This document shows positions 5,642 through 11,785 of a stretch of 11,984 nt of DNA, one piece after another (the first letter of the stretch is position 1; the number at the start of each line of letters is the position of its first letter). The stretch comes from a bacterium (GTDB lineage Bacteria; Blakebacterota; Blakebacteria; Blakebacterales; Blakebacteraceae). A model generated the notes under the pieces. That model saw only the letters and a program-made list of their open reading frames with translations. It was not told the origin of the DNA and made no database searches. The translations under genes were made by a program, and so were the position numbers. Location: NCBI GenBank assembly GCA_025774615.1, contig JALGVQ010000124.1, forward strand, positions 1 through 11,984. Reading direction: 5' to 3'.

Positions 5642-7612
5642 CTATATCAGATCAACATCCCATTTCAGCTCGACCAGCGCGGGACCGTCATGATCCAGCG
5701 CTTCACCGAGTATGGTTTCCAGACCATCGAACGTCTCGACCCGGCGCCCGAACGCACCACACAGCTCGGCAAAGGCTGCGAAATCAGGGTTGCGCAGGTC
5801 GGTCTCCCATACCGGCATGTCTCCTGAACGCTGTTCCTTGGAGATCTTCCCCAACTCGTTGTTGTTGAGCAGGATATGGGTGATATCCATCCCGTATTTC
5901 ACGGCCGTGGTGAGCTCTCCCAGGTACTGTCCGAATCCTCCATCTCCTGTGATGGCGACAACCTTGCGTCCATGGAACGGTGAACCCTCCTCCTGAGCGG
6001 CAGCCCAGGCTCCCAGTGCCGCCGGGTAGCCGAATCCGATCGATCCCAGGTAGCCCGACATCAGGACAGGCTGCCCCTTCGACTCAAAATAGCGCCCGAA
6101 GGCATAGGTGTTGTTGCCCACATCGACCGTGATGATGGCGTCGTCGGGGATCACCCGGCCGAGCACAGCGAAGATACCTGCCGCGTTGAGTCCCTGACCC
6201 CGATCATCCCCGGCACGGGAGTCCTTCTCCGTCCGCCAGATCGCCCAGCGCTCGGCGATCTCATCCCGGGTATCTGTCCACCCCTCTGTACCCTCGAGTG
6301 CTGAATGGAGCGCGGATACCGTCCGGTCGATCTCGCCCCAGACAGGAACATCCACCGCGTGGAACTTGCCCAGGATCATGGCATCGAAATCGACCTGGAT
6401 CGTCGGTTTCTTGGGTGTGATGCCGGTGTGATTGCTGAAACTCGACCCGAGGACCAGCAGACAATCCGATTCATTCATGAACCAGCTTGCCACCGGTGTC
6501 CCGCTCCGGCCCAGGACACCACAGGCCAGAGGATGATCGTCAGGGATGAGTCCCTTCGCTTTGAAGGTGGTGATCACCGGAGCGTTGAGGAGCTCTGCGA
6601 GGCGCGTGATGCCCTCCATATGAAAGCGGGCCCCATGTCCCACGATGATGGCCGGACGTTTCGAGTCCTTCAGCAGATCCACCGCATTCCCGAGCGCATC
6701 CGGAGGGGGCGCAATAGCCCTGTCGGAGAGTCGCCCATCAGGGCTCCCCGGCTCACTCCCATCCGGAGCAGCCATCTCCTGTACCTCATCGGGCAGGATC
6801 AGGTGTGAGACTCCCCGGTTCAGGACGGCACTCTTGCAGGCGAGGGTGACCAGTTCGGCGTGGTTTGAGGATGCCAGAACCGGTTGAGTCCATTGCGCCA
6901 CCCGGCCGAAGGCGGCAGTCAGGTCTATCTCCTGGAAGGCGCCGGGACCCAGGACCTGGGTCTGGACCTGACCGGTGATGGCCAGGGCGGGCGCCCGGTC
7001 CACGTTGGCATCCCACAGGCCGGTGAGCAGATTCGTGGCACCCGGTCCCGCGATCGACAGACAGGCGGCAGGACGACCGGTCAGCTTCCCGTAGGCCGAC
7101 ACGGCAAACGCCGCAGCACCTTCATGCCTGACGCCGATGTAGCGGAGTTCTTCCGCCTCGACCCGGCGCCGTATGGCGTCGGCCATGCCCAGGTTCGAAT
7201 GGCCGACCATGCCGAACACCCAGCGGATATCCCAATTGACCATGGTTCCAGCCAGCAGGTCGGAGACCGTGAGGAGAGGAACAGGTTCAGGATCGAAACC
7301 CACATAGATCCCGTCATCCCGAACTTCCACCTCGAAAGTCTCAACCGAATCGTCAAAACCGCCGGGAGGACTCCCGGTGAGGGGATGGTAGTCCCAACCA
7401 TGCCAGGGACAGCGCAGGTACCCGTTCTCGATGGCACCCTCTCCGAGTGGCCCACCCTGATGAGGGCATCTGTTGTCCAGCGCGCCGTACTTCCCTTCGA
7501 AGTGGGTCAGGCACACGGTCTGCCCCCCACAGGTCACCTGGCGGACCCGTCCCTCCTCCAGCTCGCCGTGTTCCAGTACCTTGTGCCAGACCTTTTCAGA
7601 TGACTCGGTCAT
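5642..7612 (-). CDS. Rieske [2Fe-2S] domain fused to a thiamine-diphosphate-dependent enzyme
   Basis: The protein has 656 residues. Residues 8-106 are a Rieske ferredoxin-type domain with the cluster motif C49-P-H51 and C68-P-W-H71, separated by 16 residues. Residues from about 114 to 656 form a complete ThDP enzyme of the acetolactate synthase/pyruvate oxidase superfamily. It has an N-terminal Pyr domain with catalytic Glu164 in RHEGAAAFA, a central domain (about 300-440; VDLLKDSKRPAIIVGHGARF), and a C-terminal PP domain. The ThDP/Mg motif starts GDGGFGQY at 556 and ends LLNNN at 581-585. Such enzymes decarboxylate 2-oxo acids; the attached cluster suggests electrons are taken from or given to the active site. 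The reaction is unknown. ATG 7610-7612 is preceded by AAAGGAG (7621-7627) at eight bases, a strong site. No signal peptide is present, so it acts in the cytoplasm. The gene shares strand and direction with its upstream neighbour, 117 bases away. Confidence 0.92.
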   Translation of the reverse strand: MTESSEKVWHKVLEHGELEEGRVRQVTCGGQTVCLTHFEGKYGALDNRCPHQGGPLGEGAIENGYLRCPWHGWDYHPLTGSPPGGFDDSVETFEVEVRDDGIYVGFDPEPVPLLTVSDLLAGTMVNWDIRWVFGMVGHSNLGMADAIRRRVEAEELRYIGVRHEGAAAFAVSAYGKLTGRPAACLSIAGPGATNLLTGLWDANVDRAPALAITGQVQTQVLGPGAFQEIDLTAAFGRVAQWTQPVLASSNHAELVTLACKSAVLNRGVSHLILPDEVQEMAAPDGSEPGSPDGRLSDRAIAPPPDALGNAVDLLKDSKRPAIIVGHGARFHMEGITRLAELLNAPVITTFKAKGLIPDDHPLACGVLGRSGTPVASWFMNESDCLLVLGSSFSNHTGITPKKPTIQVDFDAMILGKFHAVDVPVWGEIDRTVSALHSALEGTEGWTDTRDEIAERWAIWRTEKDSRAGDDRGQGLNAAGIFAVLGRVIPDDAIITVDVGNNTYAFGRYFESKGQPVLMSGYLGSIGFGYPAALGAWAAAQEEGSPFHGRKVVAITGDGGFGQYLGELTTAVKYGMDITHILLNNNELGKISKEQRSGDMPVWETDLRNPDFAAFAELCGAFGRRVETFDGLETILGEALDHDGPALVELKWDVDLI

Positions 7613-9960: not shown

Positions 9961-10014
9961 GCAATCATTACTGCATGATGGGGATGCCCGGTTACTCCGG
10001 TGGGCACCCTGAAT

Positions 10015-11624
10015 CTACTCCGGTGGAATCCTGAATTGATCGGGCCTTACCTTGAGAACCTTCCTCAGCCACTCCTCAGGGTAACCTCTGCTGCGACCGG
10101 TTATGTAGCCATCGTTATAACCCACGATCAGACTCTCCCCCAGCGCGCGCCAGCGTTCGATGTGAGACGGAGTAATCCGTGAGATATCGTACCGCGAGTT
10201 CCCGGTCGGTCTTGAGCAGTTCGATCGCCGTTTTCTCGACGGCCGGCTGCGACTCCAGGTAGTTACTCTCGATCTCGCTCTGCACCGCTCGCACATCCTC
10301 GATCATGTACGAATACATCAGGTTGGAGAAGTTGGAGACGAAATTGAACACCCACCAGGCTGAGTTCCATGAGAACTCTCGTATCGACCCGACCGTGTAC
10401 GATTCCGGTAGAACATTGATGCAGCAGTAGAAAGGAGTGTAGCAGGCGTAGTTGGTGTCATCAGGGCTGTACCACATGATCCCGCCCACCTCATCAGGGA
10501 TGCCCGACCGGGACTGGCTTACGAAGGAGAATGCTGTCTGCTGGGTCGAGATCGGACGTTCCCAGGAGTAACGGATCCCGTCCACCTCCCAGCCCAGCGG
10601 CCGCACACGGAACGGGTTTCCGAAAGGACCGGCGTCCATCCCCACCGTCATGTCGAAATCGGTACCCTCGTAGTGGTCACGCATCAGTGCGAAGACGTCG
10701 GCGACCGTTAGTTTCTCGTCGGGTCTGATGCTGAGGGGATACCGGTCGGCACCCTCAACACCCCTGTGATAGTCGGCGAGCAAGTCGAGGGAGGGGGCTG
10801 CCCGCCTGAAGATGCTCCAGACCCGTGCTTCAGTTACCCTCAGATCGGATGGCGTGGCCGGACAATGGCGTGGCCGGACAATACACTTCACAGTAACTGA
10901 AAGGATCACCTGAGTCGGGATCGTAGTAACCCTTCTCCACCGCGAATGAGATGACATTGTCGGAGTAGAGGCAGTTGTCAGGATCGTCGAGGGAGAATTC
11001 ACCGATCCGGGCCTTGTTGGCATGGGCGGAAATGTGACCGTCTGGCACCCTCGCCGCCACCCAGATAGCACCCTTGATGCCCCTTCCCGGCCCGATCATC
11101 TCCAGTATCCATGCTTCCTCCCTGTCTCCGATCGAGAATGATTCCCCGGAGGACCTGTAGCCATACTCTTCCACAAGCTCGGTCATCACCTGTATCGCTT
11201 CCCTGGCGGTCCTGGCGCGTTCCAGCGCGAGCTGCATCAGGTCAGGATAGCTCAGCAGACCATCCCGGTTGGTCAGATCACGGCGTCCGCCGAATGTGGT
11301 CTCCCCTATGGCCACCTGGTGTTCGTTGATGTATCCCACCACGGCATAGGTGTGGGGTATCTGTCTGATCTGCCCTCCGGCGATACCTTCCACAAAGGAT
11401 CCGTCGGGATGGTCTGCGGCCGGCGTATACTCCAGATGTGAGAGGAATTCGGCGTCACACGTGTAGGTGATCATCACCGAGCCGTCGACCGATGCACCGC
11501 CGGACACCAGGAGACTGGTACACGCATCGCTCTTCTGATCCGACCACTGTGCCTGGACCGTCGTGCCGATCAGAATGAACAGGATGAAGACCGTCGTGAT
11601 CGGGAAACGCATTCGGATACTCAT
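10015..11624 (-). pseudogene. Frameshifted secreted C69-family dipeptidase
   Basis: An intact copy would be a roughly 530-residue secreted dipeptidase of peptidase family C69, an N-terminal-nucleophile hydrolase. The start is ATG 11622-11624 with AAAGGA six bases upstream; an upstream in-frame GTG/ATG extension has no such site. The signal peptide MSIRMRFPIT...TTVQA is followed by DACTS, where Cys35 is the expected nucleophile. Family text includes HTYAVVGYINEHQVAIGETT, FTF-like GGRRDLTNRDGLLSYPDL and HISAHANKARIGEF. Translation leaves frame at a 16-bp tandem duplication and stops at 10830, giving about 264 residues. The body continues in another frame (TEARVWSIFRRAAPSLDL; YSWERPISTQQTAFSFVSQS; FSWNSAWWVFNFVSNF) down to YLTDYSVSH near 10177. 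It then needs a third frame for IERWRALGESLIVGYNDGY and the end YPEEWLRKVLKVRPDQF. Two lesions make function unlikely, unless the sequence is wrong or the repeat is reversible. Confidence 0.88.
10849..10882. repeat. Exact 16-bp tandem duplication inside the C69 gene
   Basis: GGCGTGGCCGGACAAT occurs at 10851-10866 and again, without a gap or mismatch, at 10867-10882. The AT before the first copy continues the repeat to 10849. Sixteen is not a multiple of three, so the second copy shifts the frame. Deleting one copy joins EVYCPATP directly to SDLRVTEARVWSIF in one frame, which is the order expected in the C69 family. Confidence 0.95.
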
Positions 11625-11785
11625 GACTGATCCTTTCGCCGGGGTGGCAGGAGGATGTACGGGCGGGACCGGCAATCAGAATCATATTAGCTATTGAAGA
11701 ATCGCATCTGCAAGCGATCTGCTCAGACCTGGCTTCTCCCCTGGTGATCCAGAAGGGAATTCAGAACAGAAGGGGACCGGTCCGA

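Follow-up and report, generated by a model that had tools for sequence, protein, structure and literature searches.

Is the reading frame of a dipeptidase gene that carries a perfect tandem duplication broken in the cell, or was the break written into the sequence during assembly? The question is raised by a locus in a bacterial DNA stretch of 11,984 nucleotides (the window), which is the entire contig C179 of draft genome G000, an assembly of 324 contigs and 82% completeness. The preliminary description of the window had reported two identical 16-bp units placed head to tail in a C69 dipeptidase gene, the first frame of which ends at 10830, and had considered an on/off switch, decay and an assembly artefact.

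Both observations were confirmed. TRF gave a single perfect array at positions 10849–10882 (period 16, 2.1 copies, 100% matches; unit ATGGCGTGGCCGGACA on the plus strand), and about 6.5e-6 exact tandem units of at least 16 bp would be expected in the window by chance; the repeat is far beyond chance, which is negligible as an explanation. The C69 gene, encoded on the minus strand, is split exactly at this repeat by a +1 frame change, with the stop of the N-terminal frame at 10830.

The N-terminal part (10833–11675) contains a hydrophobic leader followed by the conserved nucleophile cysteine (residue 52, in SDACTS) and matches positions 76–234 of profile PF03577 (E = 4.4e-42), and the C-terminal part (10118–10864), out of frame with it, matches positions 234–401 (E = 1.5e-28). 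The frames 11675–10833 and 10864–10118 are two parts of one gene. A further break of the frame, which the preliminary description had noted as a downstream lesion, proved to be a 14-bp absence near position 10163 relative to the related genomes G001 and G002, placed by the alignments at 10160–10190; beyond it, the last part of the gene (10015–10165) runs in a third frame to a stop at 10015–10017, as follows from the ORF at 10015–10296 and the alignment to the G001 tail. Like other members of peptidase family C69 (PF03577; PepD-type dipeptidases, Ntn hydrolases), whose gene is continuous in relatives, the window gene has the conserved nucleophile, which is a cysteine in 82 of the 82 aligned relatives with a residue at that position, and both halves score well above the profile cut-off of 23 (144.9 and 100.3 bits). 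It differs from them in its frame, which in the draft is broken twice, at 10849–10882 and again near 10163.

Across the stop codon of the gene, at 9993–10036 on the minus strand, TRF also found a diverged 22-bp tandem pair (86% matches), the second copy of which is missing from the G001 ortholog in the alignment. We weighed this pair as proof of real duplications; its origin may also lie in two joined strain variants.

Comparison with near relatives, which the preliminary description had proposed as a check, found the 16-bp duplication in none of them. In G001, a genome of the same genus with 85% DNA identity to the window in the ortholog region, the 16-bp unit is missing from the aligned ortholog, and a different exact 13-bp tandem duplication breaks the frame 5′ of that site. 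The aligned ortholog of G002, a genome of the same family, has neither duplication, and the 14-bp absence is seen in neither genome. Apart from the indels described here, the window is collinear with both genomes in the alignment, as would be expected of an assembly error. More broadly, 85 of 93 related records have one open frame through both C69 halves, 6 keep the frame and contain one stop close to where the match begins, and 1 contains one half only; the G001 ortholog is the sole frame-changing record of the 93. Neither G002 nor any of the 91 related loci has the 16-bp unit repeated or a frame change at its site.

The dN/dS ratios between the window and G001, calculated for three successive pieces of the gene, were 0.106, 0.034, and 0.070, with the differences falling mainly in third codon positions. 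These values indicate that the codons flanking the lesion on either side are under strong purifying selection and that the constraint lasted nearly to the present. Since the ratios are as low as 0.03–0.11 on both sides, long-standing decay is excluded, leaving an error or an event of very recent date. The decay reading, which had been argued from the second lesion, is thus weakened, as strong purifying selection also acts on the codons that lie downstream of it.

Lesions of the same kind were found in genes that must be intact. Valyl-tRNA synthetase is indispensable, and in G001 its gene valS (L256, G001:C340 near 5340) has a 106-bp frame-breaking gap relative to G000 in a conserved part; this is a gap and not a duplication, and no junction homology was found at it by inspection. 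In G000, the der/EngA gene contains an exact 76-bp tandem duplication (L184 3814–3965, G000:C27) that shifts the KH domain to a frame other than that of the two GTPase domains. This is the sole copy of der in G000, as judged by a single KH-domain hit, and in G001 the gene reads through as a single open frame of 464 aa. In E. coli, B. subtilis, and N. gonorrhoeae, engA is an essential gene (PMC3323550). The rpoB and rpoC genes are intact in both drafts. It is difficult to see how living cells could carry the der and valS lesions.

To estimate how often such lesions recur, we counted exact two-copy tandem duplications with a unit of at least 12 bp and a length that is not a multiple of 3, using stretches sampled from G000 (417 kb in total) and G001 (235 kb) and 786 kb of controls from G002, G003, G047, G101, and 80 MAG loci. 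Four were found in G000, eight in G001, and one in the controls, where it sits inside a longer imperfect array; the excess in G000 and G001 over the controls is significant (P = 7.5e-5, computed with 0 control events, the array being omitted). All 12 frame-breaking duplications counted in the two drafts are exact, and only three single-mismatch pairs were seen, in G001, nearly all such duplications being exact. Homology at the duplication junctions is at chance level, with a mean of 0.67 bases against a random expectation of 1.01. Several of the duplications fall within genes that can be recognised, which in G001 encode a DUF1846 protein, a TrkA-type potassium channel, a TonB-dependent receptor, and an outer-membrane efflux protein.

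The DUF1846 gene (L203 3043–3086 and vicinity, G001:C26) has, besides an exact 22-bp duplication, a 45-bp absence relative to G000, and a bactofilin-like gene (L147 near 3880, G001:C10) has, close to its start, a 71-bp absence relative to G000 that is flanked by two TGTCGA copies.

We consider it probable that the 16-bp duplication arose from local misassembly of this fragmented metagenome-assembled genome, and we infer that the assembler rather than the cell produced it. Of the options raised in the preliminary description, the artefact agrees best with the finding that indispensable single-copy genes are disrupted by such lesions in both assemblies; since living cells cannot be without der and valS, joins of contig ends are the best explanation for lesions of this class. 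Two ends sharing a short overlap may have been abutted unmerged, so that 16 bases would be written twice, and the repeat at 10849–10882 is then a probable uncollapsed contig overlap. A blunt join of ends that do not meet would leave a missing stretch, as in the 106-bp gap of valS. In metagenome assemblies, local assembly errors, sequence duplicated where scaffolds are joined, and repeats given in a wrong copy number have been documented (Chen et al. 2020, PMC7111523). The case described here resembles them in the duplicate sequence at overlapping ends, the wrong local repeat copy number, and the occurrence of several lesions per draft; it differs in that duplicate ends at joins usually leave Ns between the copies (PMC7111523), whereas the window, known from its assembled sequence alone, has none between the 16-bp copies.

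This lack of Ns speaks against an artefact, and other observations point the same way. No exact duplication of this kind was found in the 80 other MAG loci, and the error would therefore have to be specific to the G000 and G001 drafts. Real deletions often show several bases of junction homology. By inspection, the 71-bp and 45-bp absences in G001 and the 14-bp absence in the window have 4–6 bases of it and in this respect would resemble what is often seen in real deletions. A real and very recent frameshift, in which the population lost the function of one among several C69 paralogs through the tandem duplication and the 14-bp deletion, is the main competitor of the assembly error, and we regard it as unlikely but worth serious consideration. 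Loss of the gene would be tolerable, given three further intact C69 genes in G000 (C311, C241, and C219); the same gene has a second lesion, its G001 ortholog has a lesion of its own, and the diverged pair across the stop codon is a hint that real duplications occur in the lineage. Such a frameshift, however, requires that a gene constrained until then was inactivated independently and very recently in two species, and it leaves the same lesion class in der, which cannot be lost, as well as the exactness of 12 out of 12 counted duplications, standing against it.

The idea of a phase-variable on/off switch, in which slippage would toggle the locus between one 16-bp unit and two, draws on a unit length that three does not divide, so that a change of copy number would shift the frame as in contingency genes with simple tandem repeats. 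In such genes relatives keep the tract in place but differ in its copy number, and one of the copy-number states has an intact frame. Here there are only two copies, position and sequence are not conserved, the unit being unrepeated in G001, G002, and the 91 related loci, the congener has its duplication at another site with another unit, and the 14-bp lesion keeps the gene broken in either state; the switch therefore fails as an explanation and has next to no probability. We give no more credence to a mutational process acting throughout the genus, such as the end-joining of staggered breaks, by which short tandem duplications lacking junction homology would arise at a high rate. The excess at different loci of both same-genus drafts and the chance-level junction homology agree with it, but indispensable single-copy genes are struck and nearly all duplications are exact, with the three single-mismatch pairs confined to G001. 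That the genus has a real, unusual process producing exact tandem duplications of 13–104 bp without junction homology at a high rate, and that part of the population thus transiently carries broken versions of many genes, important ones included, is very improbable; in the literature on microhomology-mediated duplications we found nothing directly applicable.

Elsewhere in the window, a 656-aa ORF on the minus strand (5642–7612) carries a Rieske [2Fe-2S] domain with its cluster motifs at the N terminus (residues 9–81), joined to an entire thiamine-pyrophosphate enzyme of the pyruvate oxidase/acetolactate synthase type. Among the matches listed from 145 genomes, those outside the window cover the thiamine-pyrophosphate part only.

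Taken together, these results indicate that what looks like a frameshift, a pseudogene, or a switch in a draft metagenome assembly can be an artefact. When reads are missing, a usable check is whether the same class of lesion occurs in indispensable single-copy genes. Claims of gene loss drawn from the G000 and G001 drafts call for caution, and at the locus studied here the organism itself most likely carries an ordinary, intact gene for a secreted C69 (Ntn-hydrolase) predicted dipeptidase.
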